64,000 nucleotides of DNA. Source: Roseomonas xinghualingensis (GTDB lineage: Bacteria > Pseudomonadota > Alphaproteobacteria > Acetobacterales > Acetobacteraceae). The position numbers and the translations under genes were made by a program. Positions 55,900 through 64,000 of this stretch are shown one piece after another; position 1 is the first letter of the stretch, and every line of letters begins with the position of its first letter. The stretch lies in contig NZ_JAOXLP010000021.1 in the NCBI RefSeq assembly GCF_025791835.1, forward strand, positions 1 through 64,000. Reading direction: 5' to 3'. The notes below the pieces were generated by a model. That model was not told the DNA's origin. It saw only the letters and a program-made list of their open reading frames with translations, and did not search any database.

Positions 55900-56328
55900 C
55901 TAACGCTGCACCGGGTCCTCTTCGGCATAGGGCAAGGCGATGATATGCGCCCCCCCGGGCGGGCCGAAGCGGATCCGCAGCGCCCCCCCTATCCGCGGCT
56001 CCGCCGCCGCCACGCCACGGAGATTCACCATGATCCGCGGCCCTTCCTCCAGCGCCACCAGCGCCACCACATAGGGCAGGTCCGGCTTGAAGGCCGGCGA
56101 GGGCGGGCGGTGCACGCGCGTGTGGCTCACCAGCCGCCCGCGCCCGCTTGCCGCCTCCCAGGCAGGGGCCGGCGCGTGACAATGAACGCAGATGGCGCGC
56201 GGCGGAAACTGGGCCTGGCCGCAGGCGGCGCAGCGTTGCAGCCGCAGCTCGCCACGCGCGGCGCCCTCCCAGAAGGGTGCGGTATCCGCATTGGGCACCG
56301 GAAGCAGTCTGGCAGGGTCCTCCGCCAT
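55900..56328 (-). CDS. Zn-ribbon/OB-fold protein (DUF35 family), thiolase partner
   Basis: A 142-residue protein with four cysteines in two pairs (RCAACGQ at about 32 and CVHCHAP at about 48) that form a rubredoxin-like zinc ribbon, followed by an OB-fold with GRGRLVSHTRVHRPPSPAF and PYVVALVALEEGPRIMVN. DUF35 proteins form complexes with thiolase-like enzymes and MaoC-like hydratases, as in the ChsH2-Ltp2 steroid side-chain system. One base separates its start from the thiolase-like stop, so they are co-translated. Confidence 0.88.
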   Translation of the reverse strand: MAEDPARLLPVPNADTAPFWEGAARGELRLQRCAACGQAQFPPRAICVHCHAPAPAWEAASGRGRLVSHTRVHRPPSPAFKPDLPYVVALVALEEGPRIMVNLRGVAAAEPRIGGALRIRFGPPGGAHIIALPYAEEDPVQR

Positions 56329-56329
56329 C

Positions 56330-57487
56330 TCAGCTCCTTCCCAGCACGAGCGAGCAATGGGCGGAGAGGATGCCGCCATCGCCATGGACGAAGGCCAGTT
56401 CCGCATCCGGCACCTGCCGCGCCGCCGCTTCTCCGCGAAGCTGCCGTACCGCCTCCACGACGTGGAACAGGCCGCCCGCCGCTCCGGAATGCGCGTAGGA
56501 CATCAGCCCGCCATGGGTGTTGCAGGGCAACCGTCCACCGAGGTCAAGCGCTCCGTCCAGCGCCGCCGGGCCTGCCTCTCCCTTCTCGAAGAAGCCGATG
56601 GACTCCAACTCAACGAGCAAGGTGACGGTGAAGCTGTCATAGATCTCGGCCACATGGATGTCGGCGGGCTTCACCCCAGCACGGGCGAAGGCCTGCGCCG
56701 CGCTCTCGCGGCAGCCGAAATTGGTCAGGCTCGGGGCGGCAACCAGATGCTCATGCGTGTTCTTCTGCCCGGCGCCCAGCAACGTGACCGGCCGCTGCGC
56801 CGTATCCCGTGCCGCATCCGGCGCGCTGATGACCAACGCCGCGCCGCCATCGGAGATCAGGCAGCAGTCTAGCAGCCGCAGTGGCTCCGCGATCGGCAGG
56901 CTGGCCAGCACGTCAGCCACCGTGATCGGCACCCGCATCTGCGCCTTCGGATTACGCACCGCATGGGTGCGGCTGGCCACCGCCATGGCAGCCAGATGCT
57001 CGGGCGTCACGCCGTATTCATGCATGTAGGCGTGCGCCACCAGCGCATAAAGGGCGGGAACCGTCACGCCGAAGGGCCGCTCGAACTGCGGGTGCCCGAC
57101 CTCGGACAGCGCCGCCACGGCGCGGTCGCGCGAAAGCCCGGTCAGGCGGTTATCACCCGCGACGACAAGCACATGCCGACAGATTCCCGCCTCCACCAGC
57201 GCGGACGCCTGCATAATCATGATGCAGCCCGTGGCCCCGCCCGCCTGGATCGCGGCGGAGTAGGCAGGCTGGATGCCGAAATACTCGCAAAAGACGGAAG
57301 CGAGCATCAGATGCGGTTCGCTGAAGGAATAGGCGCAGAGCACGCCATCGATGTCGCCGGGCCGCAGCCCTGCATCGGCCAGGGCGAGCCCGGCCGCCTC
57401 GGCATGCAGCCCCATGCAGGTCGATCCGGGCAGTTCGCCCACCGCCGTATCGGCGGCTCCGGTGATAACGGCACGGCCAGGGCTCAT
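56330..57487 (-). CDS. Thiolase-like protein (lipid-transfer/Ltp2 group), catalytic Cys absent
   Basis: A 385-residue thiolase-fold protein. Sequences such as AAGLALADAGLRPGDIDGVL, the C-terminal HVAEIYDSFTVTLLVELE and LPCNTHGGLMSYAHSGAAGG match the SCP-x/lipid-transfer group. Where thiolases have CxSG, this protein reads AIQAGGATGCIMIMQ, with glycine in place of the nucleophilic cysteine. The same change occurs in Ltp2-type retro-aldolases, which cleave a 3-hydroxy acyl-CoA together with a DUF35 partner. With the DUF35 gene and two MaoC-type genes next door, aldolase function is more likely than thiolysis (inference). Confidence 0.85.
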   Translation of the reverse strand: MSPGRAVITGAADTAVGELPGSTCMGLHAEAAGLALADAGLRPGDIDGVLCAYSFSEPHLMLASVFCEYFGIQPAYSAAIQAGGATGCIMIMQASALVEAGICRHVLVVAGDNRLTGLSRDRAVAALSEVGHPQFERPFGVTVPALYALVAHAYMHEYGVTPEHLAAMAVASRTHAVRNPKAQMRVPITVADVLASLPIAEPLRLLDCCLISDGGAALVISAPDAARDTAQRPVTLLGAGQKNTHEHLVAAPSLTNFGCRESAAQAFARAGVKPADIHVAEIYDSFTVTLLVELESIGFFEKGEAGPAALDGALDLGGRLPCNTHGGLMSYAHSGAAGGLFHVVEAVRQLRGEAAARQVPDAELAFVHGDGGILSAHCSLVLGRS

Positions 57488-57660
57488 GCGGCGCCCTCCT
57501 CCCTCATCCCCGCCGTGACGTTGGCAATCTCCGGGTGCATGTGGGCGTTCAGCACGTTGCGCCTCTCCGGGTAGTGGAGGGTGAGGGTTCCGATCCCATC
57601 ATCCCTGGCCCAGCCAACGGCCTCGTAGCCATCCCTCTGCGGCTCATCCTCTCGCCTCAT
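57484..57660 (-). CDS. 58-residue crotonase N-terminal mini-protein
   Basis: This reading frame encodes the first beta hairpin of an enoyl-CoA hydratase: VGWARDDGIGTLTLHYPERR NVLNAHMHPEI, then stops where homologues go on for another 200 residues. Yet its start overlaps the MaoC stop and its stop overlaps the thiolase-like start, both as ATGA. It is either a remnant of a crotonase gene cut out without breaking translational coupling, or a functional short peptide. It cannot be a hydratase because the CoA pocket and catalytic glutamates are missing. Confidence 0.65.
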   Translation of the reverse strand: MRREDEPQRDGYEAVGWARDDGIGTLTLHYPERRNVLNAHMHPEIANVTAGMREEGAA

Positions 57661-58055
57661 GCCGGATAACCCTCCACCGTCCCCTCCCCGCCAGGAATGG
57701 CCACGCCGGTGATCACGGCCTCGCCGGTCTCGTCGCGGACCCATACCTCATAGCCAGGCCCGTCGCTGCGTGCTGCCCCGCCCGAGGTGACCCGCATGCC
57801 CATCAGCACGGGCCGCACGAAGCGGATATCCATGGAGACCGGCACCCCGCTGCCCAGAGCCTGCCGGAGCGACTGCCAAATGAGGTTCAGCGACAGCATT
57901 CCATGCGCAATGGGCCGGCCGAAGGCCGTGGTGGCGGCGAAAGCCTCGTCCACATGCACGGGATTGAAGTCATCGGTGATCGCAGCATAGGCGAGCACCG
58001 CCTCACGATCGACATGGAGGCTCACCGCAGGCAGCATGGCCAGGGTGGGAGTCAT
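57657..58055 (-). CDS. MaoC family dehydratase (hydratase 2 domain)
   Basis: A 132-residue hot-dog protein. The hydratase 2 motif is present: AYAAITDDFNPVHVDEAFAA, then FGRPIAHGMLSLNLI, with the catalytic Asp and His. It hydrates an enoyl-CoA. It is probably paired with the neighbouring MaoC-like protein that lacks the motif, as in ChsH1/ChsH2-type heterodimers. Four-base overlaps link it to genes on both sides. Confidence 0.9.
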   Translation of the reverse strand: MTPTLAMLPAVSLHVDREAVLAYAAITDDFNPVHVDEAFAATTAFGRPIAHGMLSLNLIWQSLRQALGSGVPVSMDIRFVRPVLMGMRVTSGGAARSDGPGYEVWVRDETGEAVITGVAIPGGEGTVEGYPA

Positions 58056-58501
58056 GCCGCCCACAGCACGGTCATCCGCCCGCTGAAGAGAAATCCTTCC
58101 TCGCCTCGCGTCTCCATTGCCAATGTAACACGCCGCCGTTCACGCCGGATCTCCTTGGCGGTACAGGACACGGTCGTCACTAGGTCTCCGCCGATGCGAG
58201 GAAGCCGGAACAGGGCGAAATGCTGGCTCGCATGGATGTTGCCGGGCGGACGGTGGGGAACCACCTCGCCATAGGCTCGCATGGAGACGACCGCGACCAT
58301 GCCATGCGGCATCAGCTCGCCCAGATCATCCGCTGGGAAGAGGCGGCGCCACTGCGCGATCACCGAGGGATCGAGCCTGTAGGGCGCGCTGCCCAGCAGC
58401 CGGCCAGGCACAAAATCCTCATAGAGGGTTGGGGATTCGTTCCCCAGCGGCGCCTGCTGAGCAGCGTACCCGGTGTCTGTCTCCAAGGCCCCCCCATTCA
58501 C
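58052..58501 (-). CDS. MaoC-like N-terminal dehydratase (FAS1-like hot-dog, non-catalytic half)
   Basis: A 149-residue hot-dog protein without the Asp-His hydratase motif. FVPGRLLGSAPYRLDPSVIA, PPGNIHASQHFALFRLPRIG and GDLVTTVSCTAKEIRRERRR resemble the N-terminal, substrate-binding half of two-domain MaoC hydratases. It heads the operon (MaoC-N, MaoC, mini-crotonase, thiolase-like, DUF35, Bug). The start is GTG 58501, which overlaps a CATTCAC palindrome; no Shine-Dalgarno is visible, so translation may be leaderless or start at a nearby codon. Confidence 0.8.
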   Translation of the reverse strand: MNGGALETDTGYAAQQAPLGNESPTLYEDFVPGRLLGSAPYRLDPSVIAQWRRLFPADDLGELMPHGMVAVVSMRAYGEVVPHRPPGNIHASQHFALFRLPRIGGDLVTTVSCTAKEIRRERRRVTLAMETRGEEGFLFSGRMTVLWAA

Positions 58502-58512
58502 GTCTGTGAATG
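58495..58512. promoter_or_regulatory. Palindrome at the head of the MaoC/thiolase-like operon
   Basis: CATTCAC-GTCT-GTGAATG, a perfect 7-base inverted repeat around four bases, covering the GTG start of the first gene. It is a candidate repressor site, possibly for a TetR-type protein. The flanking TGCTTATTTTATTTC is the AT-rich promoter area. Confidence 0.5.
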
Positions 58513-58555
58513 CTTATTTTATTTCCGGCAGACTAGGCTGCCCGCGTCACCGACG

Positions 58556-60703
58556 TCAAACAGCTCCTGGTACAGAGACGACCAGCGCGTCGAGCGCGAC
58601 GACTCCCTCGGCCCGCACGAGGAGCGGGTTGATCTCGATCGAACGGATCTCCGCCGGGCGCGAAGCCGCCAACTCCGAAACCCGGCACAGCGCTGCGACC
58701 AGCGCATCTCGGTCGAGCGGCGGGCTGCCGCGCCATCCCTTGAGCAGTTGAGAGGCGCCGCGCACTTGGTCGATCAGGCGCGCGGCGCGGGCTGGCGAGA
58801 GCGGCGCGGAGCCGAAGGAGATATCCTGGAACAACTCTACGGCGATGCCGCCCAGCCCGAACATTATCATGGGGCCGAAGACCGGGTCCTGCTGAACGCC
58901 GATGATGGTTTCCAGCCCCTTGCCCGCCATTGGTGCGATAAGCACGCCATCGATCCGAGCCGTGGGCGCATGCGCCCGCGCCCGCTCCATCAGCGTCTGG
59001 AAGCCCGCCGCGACCGAGGCCGCATCCGCCAACCCGAGCAGGACGCCGCCGATCTCCGTTTTATGCGGTATGTCCTCCGACAGGATCTTCGCAACAACCG
59101 GGTAGCCAACGGCCTGGGCGGCCGCCACGGCCCCGGCCGCATCGGTCACGACGCGCTCCGGAAGAACCGGGACGCCGACGGCGGCCAGCAGCGCCTTGGC
59201 GCCTGCTTCGTGCCGCGTATCGATCGCTTCGCCATGGAGTGGCGGCACGGCCAGCAGCACCTCGGCGGCGGCCTGGAGCCCCGGTAGGGCGGCGCCCGCC
59301 CCCAGCGCGCGTAAAGCGCGGGAAGGATCGTCGAAGACAGGAATGCCGATCTCCCCCAGCCGGTCCCTCACCGTCTCGTCCAAAGTGGCGACGACAATGA
59401 GGAGGCGATCTGGATAACGCTGCCGCAGCCGCCGGAAGCCCTGCTCCACCTTCGCAAACAGCGCCGGATTTCGCAGCGTATGGGCAAAATAGGTGACGAT
59501 GGTCGGAATAGCCGTGCGCTCCAGTGCGCTGCCGATCAGCGTCTCCACTGCATCCATCCGCGGGATCGCGTTGGCCGTGGTGTCCACCGGGTTTACCCCA
59601 GCCGCGGCGGGCAGGCTTTCAATCACCGCACCGAGCACCTCCGGCGGAAAGGCCGGCAGCGATAGACCGGCGGCGCTCGCAGCATCGGCCATCAGCACGC
59701 CGATCCCGCCGGAGATGGACACGATGCCCACCTCCCGCCCGCCCGGCATGCCGCCCAGGCTGCAGAGCTGGGCGATGTCGATCATCTCCTCGATACTCTG
59801 GGCACGCCAGGCACCGCCCTCGCGTAGCACGGCGTCGTAGACGCGGTCCTCGCCAGCAAGGGAACCCGTATGCGTCGCCGCCGCGGCCGCCCCCGCCTCG
59901 CTGGCGCCCACCTTCATTACAATTACCGGCTTGCCCGCCTGTGCTGCCTTCAGCAACGCCGCGCGCAGCCTCGCACCGTCCCGGCACCCCTCCAGCGCCG
60001 CGCAAATCACCGAGGTGCCCTCGTCATCGGCCAACAGGGCAATGCATTCCGCCACGTCCAGGTCGGCCTCGTTACCGGTTGCGACCGCACGGCTCATCCC
60101 GATCCCACGCAGATGCGCGCAGGCATAGGCATGGGAGGCGAAGGCGCCGCTCTGTGTCACGAAGGAAACGCGGCCGGGCCGGAAGCGCATGCTGTCCAGC
60201 GTGGTGGTGAAGGTCGCGAAAAGCCCATCAGGCACGCTGACAGAGCCAAGCGCATTCGGCCCGGTAATGCGAATGCCCGCTCGGCGCGCTACGGCCAGGA
60301 TCCGCTTCTGTCGCACGGCACCCTCCGGCCCCTCCTCGGCAAAACCGGAGGAAAGCACTTGTACCAGCCGGATTCCCCGCGCGGCGCAGGCCTCCAGCGC
60401 CGGCTCCACGGCCTGGGCCGGCACGATCACCAGGGCTTGGTCTGGCGTTTCAGGAAGGTCGGCGACGCTGCGAAAGGCTGGAAGCCCCTGCACCACCTCG
60501 CCAGAGCCATTCACCGGATAGATCCGCCCGGCGAAGCCGAACCTCTTCAGGTAATCCACCGGACGCCCGCCGAGCTTCGCAGGATCCGAGGAGGCGCCAA
60601 TGATAGCGATAGAATCAGGCTGGAACAGGGCCCTGCGGAGCCATGCCTGGCCGCCGGAGCCATCGGATGGCCGGGAGCATCGGGGCAGGGTCATGACGGA
60701 CAT
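58556..60703 (-). CDS. NDP-forming acyl-CoA synthetase (acetate--CoA ligase family, fused alpha-beta)
   Basis: A 715-residue enzyme. The N-terminal CoA-binding domain reads FQPDSIAIIGASSDPAKLGG RPVDYLKRFGFAG; the ligase_CoA/succinyl-CoA synthetase-like middle has VSFVTQSGAFASHAYACAH and the phospho-histidine region TGSLAGEDRVYDAVLRE; the C-terminal ATP-grasp domain contains GYPVVAKILSEDIPHKTEIG GVLLGL. It activates a carboxylate to its CoA ester with ATP giving ADP. ATG 60703 has GGAG at a good distance; ATG 60715 is an alternative. It probably makes the CoA ester consumed by the MaoC/thiolase-like operon directly downstream. Confidence 0.92.
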   Translation of the reverse strand: MSVMTLPRCSRPSDGSGGQAWLRRALFQPDSIAIIGASSDPAKLGGRPVDYLKRFGFAGRIYPVNGSGEVVQGLPAFRSVADLPETPDQALVIVPAQAVEPALEACAARGIRLVQVLSSGFAEEGPEGAVRQKRILAVARRAGIRITGPNALGSVSVPDGLFATFTTTLDSMRFRPGRVSFVTQSGAFASHAYACAHLRGIGMSRAVATGNEADLDVAECIALLADDEGTSVICAALEGCRDGARLRAALLKAAQAGKPVIVMKVGASEAGAAAAATHTGSLAGEDRVYDAVLREGGAWRAQSIEEMIDIAQLCSLGGMPGGREVGIVSISGGIGVLMADAASAAGLSLPAFPPEVLGAVIESLPAAAGVNPVDTTANAIPRMDAVETLIGSALERTAIPTIVTYFAHTLRNPALFAKVEQGFRRLRQRYPDRLLIVVATLDETVRDRLGEIGIPVFDDPSRALRALGAGAALPGLQAAAEVLLAVPPLHGEAIDTRHEAGAKALLAAVGVPVLPERVVTDAAGAVAAAQAVGYPVVAKILSEDIPHKTEIGGVLLGLADAASVAAGFQTLMERARAHAPTARIDGVLIAPMAGKGLETIIGVQQDPVFGPMIMFGLGGIAVELFQDISFGSAPLSPARAARLIDQVRGASQLLKGWRGSPPLDRDALVAALCRVSELAASRPAEIRSIEINPLLVRAEGVVALDALVVSVPGAV

Positions 60704-61063
60704 GGTGTTCTCCATCCATCTCGCCGCCTCTGGCCACGTGGCTTGCATTCGGAAGCAAGAATTTTCTTTCTTTGATAAGAATGATACTAAGGCGGTTTCC
60801 AGGGGCATGTCAAAGACAAGGGAGGGCGCCTGACGGTACCGTGCCGGGTCTGATCGATGCTCCTGCTGGCGGCAGCCAAGGTCATGGGGCCGCATGGCTT
60901 GTGGGCGCAGATGGCTGGCCAGCGTATCTTCCGCATCAAGCGATGCGGACCAGATGGTCATGGCACGCAGCGGCCGATGCGTGCACCGGGGGCGGCGTCT
61001 CCAGCATCTGATACACGGCATTTTTGCTTTATGGGCAGGCAACGCGCCTCCCCGCGGATACCT
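60704..61063. promoter_or_regulatory. Gap upstream of the acyl-CoA synthetase gene
   Basis: The left third (60745-60800) is strikingly AT-rich, with AAGAATTTTCTT (a 12-base palindrome at about 60759-60770) and a second AAGAAT nearby, and is likely the promoter and operator of the synthetase. The rest holds no recognised gene. Confidence 0.45.
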
Positions 61064-62035
61064 TCAATCGAGCGCGAGCTTGCCTTCGCGCACCACCTGG
61101 CCCCATTTCGTGAGTTCCGCCTCAAGCTTGGCGCGGAATTCGGCCGGCGTGGATCCGACCGGCTCGCTGCCTTCTGTAGCAAGGCGAGACACGATCTCGG
61201 GACCAGAAACGGCCTTTCGCATCTCTTCGTTCCAACGGGTGAGGATCGGCTCCGGCAGCCGGGCCGGCGCAACCAAGCCCGTCCAGTTCATTGCCTCGAA
61301 GCCGGGGAAGCCCTGCTCGGCAACCGTTGGCACCTCCGGAAAGGCGCGGGTGCGCGCCGCCGAAGTCACGGCAATGGCGCGGACTTCGCCCGCCTGCAGC
61401 ACTCCCTTCACCGAGAGTGGATTGGCCGAATAAACATCGAGCCGCCCTGCGAGAAGGTCGGTCACCACCGTGCCAGCGCCCCGGTAAGGAACCTGGGTAA
61501 TCTGGACACCTGCCAAGCGGTTCAGCACTTCGCCGGAGAGGTGGCCAACGGTGCCGTTGCCCGGATGTCCGGCGGAAAGGTGGCCAGGCTGCGCCCGTGC
61601 CGCGGCAAGAAGATCGCTGAGGCTTTGCACTGGCGAGTGCTTCCCGACCACGATGATGTTTGGCTGCTGGGCCACCAGCCCGATCGGCGTGAAGTCTCGA
61701 AGCACGTCATAGGGCATATTGCGGTAGAGCGCGGGGTTGATAGCGAGGTTCGCAGTCTGGCCCATGCCGATGGTGTGGCCGTCCGGTGCTGCCTTCGCCA
61801 CTGCGTCAAGGCCGATGTTACCGCCCGCCCCCGGGCGATTGTCCACAACCACCGTCCAGCCGGTCGCTGCGGCGACACGGGTGCCGATCTCGCGCGAGAT
61901 CATGTCTGTACCGCCACCGGGCGGAAAAGGGACAATGAGGCGAATTGGCCGCTCGGGATAGCCGGTCTGGGCGCGTGCGAGATGCGGCGTGGCGAGCGCC
62001 ATGCCAACGCCGGCAAGGAGAATGCGACGGTCCAT
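61064..62035 (-). CDS. Tripartite tricarboxylate transporter substrate-binding protein (Bug/TctC)
   Basis: A 323-residue periplasmic receptor. The signal peptide is MDRRILLAGVGMALATPHLA up to RAQ; then YPERPIRLIVPFPPGGGTDM and VVVDNRPGAGGNIGLDAVAK show a textbook Bug protein. The AT-rich stretch 62041-62085 upstream, with TAATAT on the minus strand, is the likely promoter. It faces a decayed dehydrogenase and the duplicated-domain protein on the other strand, so a carboxylate catabolism cluster probably stood here. Confidence 0.94.
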   Translation of the reverse strand: MDRRILLAGVGMALATPHLARAQTGYPERPIRLIVPFPPGGGTDMISREIGTRVAAATGWTVVVDNRPGAGGNIGLDAVAKAAPDGHTIGMGQTANLAINPALYRNMPYDVLRDFTPIGLVAQQPNIIVVGKHSPVQSLSDLLAAARAQPGHLSAGHPGNGTVGHLSGEVLNRLAGVQITQVPYRGAGTVVTDLLAGRLDVYSANPLSVKGVLQAGEVRAIAVTSAARTRAFPEVPTVAEQGFPGFEAMNWTGLVAPARLPEPILTRWNEEMRKAVSGPEIVSRLATEGSEPVGSTPAEFRAKLEAELTKWGQVVREGKLALD

Positions 62036-62256: not shown

Positions 62257-62463
62257 ATCACGGGCGCGGAAGTCGGCTCGCTGACCATCATCGCCTCGGG
62301 CCCGATGCCGCCTAGCTGGCCGCAGTCCAGCCAACCACACCTATTGCCGCCAGCTCTACCGCGCCGGGCAGGGCTCCACGGCGAAGCTGATAAAACAGCT
62401 CCTCATCGCGATCCATATCGCGCTGATCGCGGAGGCTCCGGGCTTGGCTCAAGGAGCAAAACG
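62257..62463 (+). pseudogene. 3-hydroxyisobutyrate dehydrogenase family relic
   Basis: Two pieces in different frames: ITGAEVGSLTIIASG (62257-62301), the strand region that begins 'GxxxAExGxLtixvgG' in this family, and GQGSTAKLIKQLLIAIHIAL IAEAPGLAQGAK (62366-62461), the start of the all-helical C-terminal domain with the catalytic lysine position. The sequence between them is shortened and shifted by one base. The N-terminal NAD domain and the rest of the helices are absent. Confidence 0.75.
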
Positions 62464-62529
62464 GGGGTGCTTTGCATGTACCAATCCCTCGGCACGTCCG
62501 ACGTCGCCGAGCTTGCAAAGAGGCCCGGC

Positions 62530-63351
62530 ATGAACACCGAGATCACGACCATCCCCATCATCACGGCGGACACGATTACGAAGTTGCCGCCGGAGGCGAA
62601 CGGCGCCGTCATCCTCTCCGGCTCGCATGGTGGACGCTATCCAGGCTACCTGACGGCCAAGGCCAATGCCCGCGCCGTGATCCTGAACGATGCCGGGTTG
62701 GGCAAGGAGGATGCGGGGATCGGCTCCCTGCCCTATCTGGAGGCGCTGGGCATCGCCGCCGCCACCGTCTCCCATCTTTCCTGTCGGATCGGCGACACGG
62801 CCGACATGCGGGCGCGTGGCGTCATCAGCCACGCGAACGCACCCGCCCGCGCCGTGAGCGTCGCGCCGGGGATGAATTGCGACGCTGCGGCGGGACTGCT
62901 ACGGAAAGCGCGGCATGTCCGCACGACCGCGCCGGTCCTCGGCGAGGCGCGCGGCGAGGTGCCGGTTCCGGGTGGGGCGCGGCGCATCCTGCTGCTGGAC
63001 TCCGCATCTCTCGTCCTGCCGGAGGATGCGGGGCAGATCATCGTCACCGGATCTCATGGAGGACTGGTGGGCGGCGTCCCCTCCATGGCCTTGCGGGTAG
63101 AGGGCTTCGCGGGCGTCTTCCACGACGCGGGGATCGGCATTGAGGATGCCAGGACCACGCGCCTTCCCGCACTCGACGGGCGTGGTATCGCCTCCTTCAC
63201 CGTCTCCGCCACCTCCGCTCGTATCGGCGACGCCGCCTCCGTCTTCCATGACGGAGTCATCTCCGTGGTGAACGAGACAGCCCGCCGGCTTGGTGCGGCG
63301 CCGGGCATGCACGCTTCCGAGGTGCTGCTCAACTGGGCGCGCCGGTCCTGA
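62530..63351 (+). CDS. Unknown protein made of two tandem copies of one domain
   Basis: A 273-residue protein of no family I know. Residues 12-126 and 157-268 are homologous repeats: (S/T)GSHGG at 30-35 and 173-178, DAG(L/I)G at 54-58 and 199-203, RIGD at 86-89 and 231-234, and APGM at 112-115 and 257-260, so the offset is 143-145 residues throughout. A polar linker (about 127-156) joins the copies. The GSHGG and DAGxG loops look like ligand or catalytic sites. No signal peptide. ATG 62530 follows AAAGAGG; an in-frame ATG at 62476 would add 18 residues. It lies next to decayed 3-hydroxyacid dehydrogenase and aldolase genes and is divergent from a Bug receptor. Confidence 0.8.
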   Translation: MNTEITTIPIITADTITKLPPEANGAVILSGSHGGRYPGYLTAKANARAVILNDAGLGKEDAGIGSLPYLEALGIAAATVSHLSCRIGDTADMRARGVISHANAPARAVSVAPGMNCDAAAGLLRKARHVRTTAPVLGEARGEVPVPGGARRILLLDSASLVLPEDAGQIIVTGSHGGLVGGVPSMALRVEGFAGVFHDAGIGIEDARTTRLPALDGRGIASFTVSATSARIGDAASVFHDGVISVVNETARRLGAAPGMHASEVLLNWARRS

Positions 63352-63362
63352 TGGGAACTCCA

Positions 63363-63707
63363 TGACCGCTGCAGCCCGGTTCAAGGCGAAGCCTGCCACG
63401 AAGGAGAGCCCCCTCCTGCTCAACCCGAACTATCCGTCACCGGGGCTTGTGGAGTTCTCGCGGCGGCCTTTTTCATCGGCGTTGACCTCGCCAAGAGCAT
63501 GGGCTTTGCCGGCGGCTACACAGGCCGGAGATGGTCCGGACGATCAAGGAGACTACTGTCCGGAACCACCGTGCCGGCAAGCCCGCAGGCATGATGCTGA
63601 AGCCACATGACATCGAGGCATGGAAGGTGCCCCCCATGCTCTACGCCCATGTCTATGACTTCCTCGTCATGGGCGCGAAGGAGTGGCAGGCGCGGACGGG
63701 GCTGTAG
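63363..63707 (+). pseudogene. HpcH/HpaI aldolase-like relic with internal deletion
   Basis: It starts with ATG 63363, MTAAARFKAKPATKESPLLL NPNYPSPGLVEF, which resembles the head of HpcH/HpaI aldolases. A gap of roughly 130 residues follows. The reading resumes with FFIGVDLAKSMGFAGGYTG (the GxxDLaxxMG loop), loses one base near 63526, and continues from 63531 as MVRTIKETTVRNHRAGKPAG MML... to a TAG at 63705. Only about 110 of the usual 250 residues survive. Family assignment is from motif resemblance only. Confidence 0.6.
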
Positions 63708-64000
63708 AACCTCCGGTCGTGTCCAGCCGCCCTGCGATGGCCGTTGCCTCCTCCTCCAGCCAGGCGACCAGCTGGGCGCGGCGTTCCGGCTGCATCCGGC
63801 CCTCGATGGCCGCTATGCTCAAGGCGCCGGCCACCTGGCTCCCGCCCGTGCGGACAGGTACGCCCACCGCCATCATGCCCTGCAGCACCATGCCGGGATT
63901 GGTGGCATAGCCCTCCGCGCGAGTGCGCTCCACCAACTCCCGCAGCTTTGCGGGGCGAAAGGCGGTGTAGGACCGCAGGCGGTCAGCATTCCCGGTGATC
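63667..64000 (-). CDS. IclR family transcriptional regulator, C-terminal part (runs off right edge)
   Basis: The minus strand from the window edge reads TGNADRLRSYTAFRPAKLRE LVERTRAEGYATNPGMVLQG MMAVGVPVRTGGSQVAGALS, the end of the IclR effector domain, and stops at 63667 after a Ser/Thr/Pro tail. The DNA-binding half is outside the window. It overlaps the aldolase relic by 41 bases and may have regulated the decayed cluster to its left. Confidence 0.85.
   Translation of the reverse strand, partial: ITGNADRLRSYTAFRPAKLRELVERTRAEGYATNPGMVLQGMMAVGVPVRTGGSQVAGALSIAAIEGRMQPERRAQLVAWLEEEATAIAGRLDTTGGSTAPSAPATPSRP

Follow-up and report, generated by a model that had tools for sequence, protein, structure and literature searches.

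The duplicated gene and its surroundings

We analyzed a stretch of 64,000 nucleotides from Roseomonas xinghualingensis (contig NZ_JAOXLP010000021.1, positions 1 to 64,000), referred to here as the window, and concentrated on a forward-strand gene at 62530..63351. Judged from its sequence, this gene encodes a two-halved protein (P0001) of a large unnamed family that is distant kin of DUF1805. The frame is uninterrupted over 273 amino acids, a length shared by six of the seven nearest relatives; an alternative in-frame start further upstream would give an open reading frame of 348 amino acids (62305-63351). The N-terminal domain comprises approximately residues 5-127 (62542..62910, forward strand), with GSHGG at 31-35, DAGLG at 54-58, RIGD at 86-89 and N103. 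The C-terminal domain comprises approximately residues 146-272 (62965..63345, forward strand), with GSHGG at 174-178, DAGIG at 199-203, RIGD at 231-234 and N248. The protein has one match within its own genome.

The original prediction for this DNA proposed a clean internal duplication in which four motifs recur at a constant offset of 143-145 residues, and both statements are borne out. The offset is 143 residues for GSHGG (31/174) and 145 for each of DAG (54/199), RIGD (86/231) and APGM (112/257). Local alignment of one half against the other scored 195 over approximately 120 residues, compared with a mean of 32.8 (s.d. 5.8) and a maximum of 60 for 500 composition shuffles, and a domain profile made from such halves matches both halves of the protein.

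The AlphaFold2 model, which is confident (mean pLDDT 96.1, pTM 0.92), predicts strands and helices in identical order in the two halves, at the same offset of 143-145. For the N- and C-terminal halves respectively, these are strands 10-13/153-156, 27-33/170-176 and 49-53/194-198, helices 59-64 and 66-72/204-209 and 211-217, strand 76-80/221-225, helix 90-96/235-241, strand 98-102/243-247 and helix 117-124/262-271. The window protein is composed of two homologous domains, each possessing the S-H, D-A-G, R-I-G and N motifs. Because a predicted β-strand precedes each of the GSHGG, DAG-x-G and S-x-RIGD loops, one shared pocket per half can reasonably be proposed. A two-site enzyme or a pseudo-dimer had been suggested beforehand; the pseudo-dimer is the best reading, given the half-size single-domain relatives described below, and two active sites enter only the putative mechanism.

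All four neighbors named from the sequence alone were identified. Upstream on the forward strand is a relic of a 3-hydroxyisobutyrate dehydrogenase (HIBADH)-type gene, in pieces in two frames (62258..62470, ends approximate), and downstream is a shortened and frameshifted relic of an HpcH/HpaI aldolase gene (63362..63707). Both genes are intact in the relative L004, directly upstream (PF03446 and PF14833) and directly downstream (PF03328), where the gene order is HIBADH-type, tandem protein, HpcH aldolase, IclR on the other strand, a thiamine pyrophosphate (TPP) enzyme and TctC. On the reverse strand of the window, a TctC/Bug tripartite tricarboxylate transporter receptor (61064..62035) exhibits 35% identity to the Pfam-confirmed TctC of L004, and an IclR-family regulator (63667..64000, continuing past the window to approximately 64389 on the contig) exhibits 52% identity to the Pfam-confirmed IclR of L046. 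The acetolactate synthase (ALS)-like TPP partner that is frequent in the family is missing from the window locus; across the genome, the best matches to it have 29-32% identity, and none of them is a close relative.

Here the gene is still intact while the operon around it has decayed; the decay is recent unless the window protein still serves another purpose. With both flanking partner genes reduced to relics and no close TPP-enzyme relative found in the genome, the protein itself could be a decaying leftover without function here. We consider this unlikely, if the least unlikely of the alternatives, because the frame is open, all motifs are kept, and the pairwise ratio of nonsynonymous to synonymous substitution (dN/dS) against the nearest relative L002 is 0.14, similar to the 0.15-0.17 among the intact relatives L002-L004 (up to 0.24 with L040), a comparison in which very recent decay would not show. 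Further upstream, at 55900-61042, the translations suggest by eye a CoA-type cluster (thiolase-like, OB-fold-like, two MaoC-like and a large acyl-CoA synthetase-like protein) that is seemingly unrelated to the operon of the tandem protein.

Kinship with DUF1805 and the origin of the duplication

The motif pattern had been said to match no family that could be named, and this part of the original prediction did not hold. Pfam DUF1805 (PF08827) matches 74 of 91 relatives at E ≤ 0.01, the best at 1.7e-8, and L074 is above the gathering score (31.7 against 29.5). Against PF08827 the window protein reaches 13.6 bits, short of the gathering cut-off of 29.5 bits, and it falls below every other cut-off as well. 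Among the matches listed, 31 of 120 have a precomputed PF08827 label, and the database names are mostly "hypothetical" or absent, with some copies already named "YunC (DUF1805 family)". The single standout in the fold comparison was TA1206 (1QW2), a DUF1805 protein by sequence (E 1.2e-11) and according to a published account (PMC9425974). The tandem family is remotely related to DUF1805 by sequence, with a probable link in fold, and would represent a previously undescribed branch of that fold.

Three proteins of the DUF1805/YunC/COG3377 group (PF08827; 1QW2) that we compared are single short domains without the strand-helix unit bearing DAG-x-G. In contrast, the domains of the tandem family are longer, usually in tandem, and each contains the DAG unit, so that the window protein does not share the single-short-domain trait. 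The sequence and fold relationship would also be expected of a divergent DUF1805/YunC protein that shares the role of YunC and has no special catabolic link. However, the DAG unit is missing from the three DUF1805 proteins, only one of the 12 members with a cut-off comparison exceeds the Pfam gathering score, and a catabolic neighborhood is recurrent, which together make this explanation improbable. No function for any DUF1805 protein or for the tandem family was found in the portions of the openly licensed literature available.

A relationship to the Y-family DNA polymerases (IMS, PF00817) was considered and judged improbable. The window protein scores 14.4 bits against a cut-off of 23.2 and covers 33 of 148 profile positions. 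At E ≤ 0.01, Pfam IMS matches 49 of 91 members, the best at 5.2e-9. Foldseek aligned 24-25 columns at 0.6-0.9 Å. An IMS-like strand-helix segment, G-V-I-S-x-x-N-x-x-A-R-x-x-G, is found at 62815-62874 and 63250-63309 of the window. The resemblance is probably a local coincidence, and the annotation of some database entries of the family as PF00817 is misleading.

The family is large: 5930 of 7999 candidates scored within E ≤ 1e-3. With the source genome included and weak matches counted, members are found in 28 of 147 related genomes, 49 of 385 of the class and 6 of 398 of the phylum. Thirteen plasmid records from Rhizobium, Ponticoccus, Methylovirgula, Aminobacter, Rhodococcus and haloarchaea encode the family, ten of which were fetched for locus analysis. 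Of the 88 loci retrieved, 78 give two domain matches (those of L083 sit in two frames), nine have one full domain (L084-L087 and L144-L148) and one (L009) has none. The single-domain relatives possess the GSHGG-, DAG-, RIGD- and N-type motifs of the tandem family but are not duplicated. Known neighbor families are near six of the nine single-domain genes: PGDH_C (L084), an OiaK-type kinase (L085), HpcH (L144 and L145) and a short-chain dehydrogenase/reductase (SDR) or TctC (L086 and L148); the tblastn search with 18 seeds described below found no match near L087, L146 and L147. In L145 (5202-7280) the single-domain gene precedes the remains of a second copy and a gene for an HpcH aldolase, an arrangement that is possibly a stage before or after the tandem fusion.

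A tree was made with 59 of 157 domains. L082, L083, L075 and L133, being partial or frameshifted, had been excluded beforehand from all trees, as had the weak second domain piece found in L145. In the main lineage, 19 of the 20 N-terminal domains and 19 of the 20 C-terminal domains group into separate starred clades (99/99), L080 being the exception, and the single domains are outside both clades. This pattern in an unrooted tree suggests fusion of an ancestral homodimer; the single-domain relatives may instead have lost one half. If fusion is correct, the single-domain forms provide a clear case of a homodimer turning into a fused pseudo-dimer. In the first tree the N- and C-terminal domains of L073, L074, L143, L149 and L150 intermix. 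A second independent duplication in this group, which was defined only after that tree had been seen, was rejected as a conclusion, since a tree with all N-terminal domains together was not rejected (approximately unbiased test, p 0.405).

Conservation in N-terminal, C-terminal and single domains, respectively, is 1.00, 1.00 and 1.00 for S32/175; 0.99, 1.00 and 1.00 for H33/176; 0.93, 1.00 and 1.00 for D54/199; 0.90, 0.93 and 1.00 for R86/231; and 0.99, 1.00 and 1.00 for N103/248. Because the five key residues are kept at 0.90-1.00, neither half appears to be dead in the main lineage. In five divergent members (ten domains), conservation of the H and R falls to 0.60.

Recurrent neighbors and the TPP link

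Neighbors were sought by tblastn in 87 loci with 18 seed proteins, one a CoA transferase identified by eye and the others taken from families recognized through Pfam or plasmid annotation; seed matches were counted because the gene calls included antisense frames. Several of the 87 loci share one genome or come from close relatives, and some are short stretches. An ALS-like TPP enzyme is found in 39 loci (median identity 64%), and E1α and E1β in 37 each; any of the three is present in 46 loci and all three in 30. Other neighbors are SDR (26 loci), the TRAP transporter protein DctM (15), TctC and IclR (12 each), OiaK-type kinase and HpcH (nine each), RuBisCO-like protein (eight), PGDH_C (seven) and HIBADH/6PGD-type (four). 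At least one carbon-carbon-cleavage or kinase seed matches in 57 loci and none in 30. Luciferase-like monooxygenase, FAH and sulfatase had seemed by eye to be recurrent and were rejected, their seeds matching in at most four loci. The original neighborhood had been taken to indicate carboxylate catabolism, and many loci do exhibit genes of carboxylate or sugar-acid catabolism.

The family membership of the neighboring ALS-type TPP enzymes and pyruvate dehydrogenase (PDH)-type E1 pairs was confirmed by Pfam. The E1β of L055 is above the cut-off of an NCBIfam PDH E1β subfamily (325 against 321) and that of L045 is below it (302.5), while five ALS-like enzymes that were scanned are below the cut-offs of the 25 models listed for each. 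Two E2 seeds had no match at E ≤ 1e-6 in the 87 loci, 37 of which have E1, in a search without a positive control. The linked TPP and E1 genes may thus encode proteins that differ from typical acetolactate synthases and dehydrogenase complexes. In comparison with the ALS-like enzyme of L055, the linked enzyme has 59-70% identity in 18 of 20 genomes and 89% in G027, the remaining genome being the source of the query. At this level of sequence identity, the linked ALS-like enzyme (L122, L055 and other TPP-linked loci) is a well-conserved subfamily.

Among 147 related genomes, 18 of the 20 with the TPP enzyme (called at E ≤ 1e-120) also encode the tandem protein, compared with 10 of the 127 others (Fisher p 3.9e-14, a value inflated by shared descent; the two sets of 147 genomes were taken as identical). 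Sixteen of the 87 loci have the TPP match less than 120 bp from the domain and in the same orientation, 15 of them with the match downstream. Acetolactate synthases possess small regulatory subunits, and with this precedent the proximity and strong co-occurrence would be consistent with a subunit that assists or regulates the ALS-like enzyme rather than a separate enzyme. We regard that as distinctly unlikely. The haloarchaeal loci pair the protein with a RuBisCO-like protein and a kinase, without such a TPP gene in the stretches examined; no such gene is present in 48 of the 87 loci, some of them short; two of the 20 genomes, both less than 90% complete, have the TPP enzyme with no tandem protein detected; and the conserved residues would resemble active sites more than an interface.

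A putative enzyme of small-acid catabolism

The tandem protein is probably a metabolic enzyme. A small hydroxy- or oxo-acid substrate would fit because TPP lyases, HpcH, RuBisCO-like proteins, HIBADH-type reductases and carboxylate transporters are nearby. We tentatively propose a fused homodimer of enlarged DUF1805-like domains that acts as a cofactor-independent isomerase-type enzyme of hydroxy or oxo acids, a reading that is possible rather than probable. Two copies of an approximately 125-residue α/β domain, an enlarged distant relative of YunC and TA1206, would form the pseudo-dimer, and the extra strand-and-helix unit would bring the DAG motif into each domain. The putative soluble enzyme would have one site per half, in which the GSHGG, DAG-x-G and S-x-RIGD loops line one pocket. 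The carboxylate would be held by Gly/Ser amides and Arg (86/231), and a proton would be moved by His (33/176) with Asp (54/199). Our guess for the reaction class is isomerization, epimerization or tautomerization, with the product prepared for a carbon-carbon-cleaving enzyme of the same operon. In many proteobacteria that partner would be the ALS-like TPP enzyme; haloarchaea would use a kinase and a RuBisCO-like protein, and relatives of the Roseomonas locus an HpcH aldolase together with the TPP enzyme.

It is more doubtful whether the proposal extends to a widespread cofactor-free enzyme class of proteobacterial, actinobacterial and haloarchaeal catabolism, in which the fused dimer feeds either a TPP enzyme and E1 pair or a RuBisCO-like protein, depending on the branch. 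If true, this would be the first catalytic role for the DUF1805 fold, to which the linkage with TPP enzymes or with RuBisCO-like protein and kinase would attach a function. The family has thousands of database copies, and its genomic linkage allows it to be tested directly as a missing step in the catabolism of small acids.

In five haloarchaeal plasmid regions, a TRAP transporter (four of five), an aldolase (four of five), an SDR and a VOC protein precede the tandem protein, and in all five a RuBisCO-like protein is directly downstream of it, followed by a four-carbon-acid-sugar kinase. One of these loci, L070, with a TRAP transporter, SDR, PGDH_C, OiaK-like kinase and OiaX-like protein, was scanned with the models of the D-apionate enzymes OiaK and OiaX (NCBIfam NF042436 and NF042437). 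Its RuBisCO-like protein matches OiaX at 512 bits and its kinase matches OiaK at 448 bits, below the equivalog cut-offs of 700, and its SDR exceeds the threshold of an NCBIfam glucose-1-dehydrogenase subfamily. From these model scores, the L070 pathway would resemble, perhaps without being identical to, D-apionate breakdown.

Alternatively, the tandem protein may be a lactonase that hydrolyzes the lactone of a sugar acid. In haloarchaea the lactone would be produced by an SDR acting as a sugar dehydrogenase, and the tandem protein, in the position of D-apionolactonase in D-apiose catabolism, would work ahead of the oxidoreductase, the kinase and the RuBisCO-like protein. The five D-apiose enzymes listed in PMC11747546 include a lactonase, and unless it replaces that enzyme the tandem protein has no evident counterpart among them. 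Conserved Ser-His in both halves and the SDR in 26 of 87 loci are consistent with a lactonase. None is annotated among the 14 features of L070, but the plasmid annotation is incomplete and no search aimed at a lactonase was made, so that the missing gene is weak evidence. The TPP-linked loci are moreover the commoner setting, and a lactone would be unexpected there; a lactonase is thus unlikely, if somewhat less so than a regulatory subunit. RuBisCO-like and kinase genes are also found near the tandem-family homologs in L004 (5.6-6.9 kb away, beside a TPP enzyme), L006 and L080.
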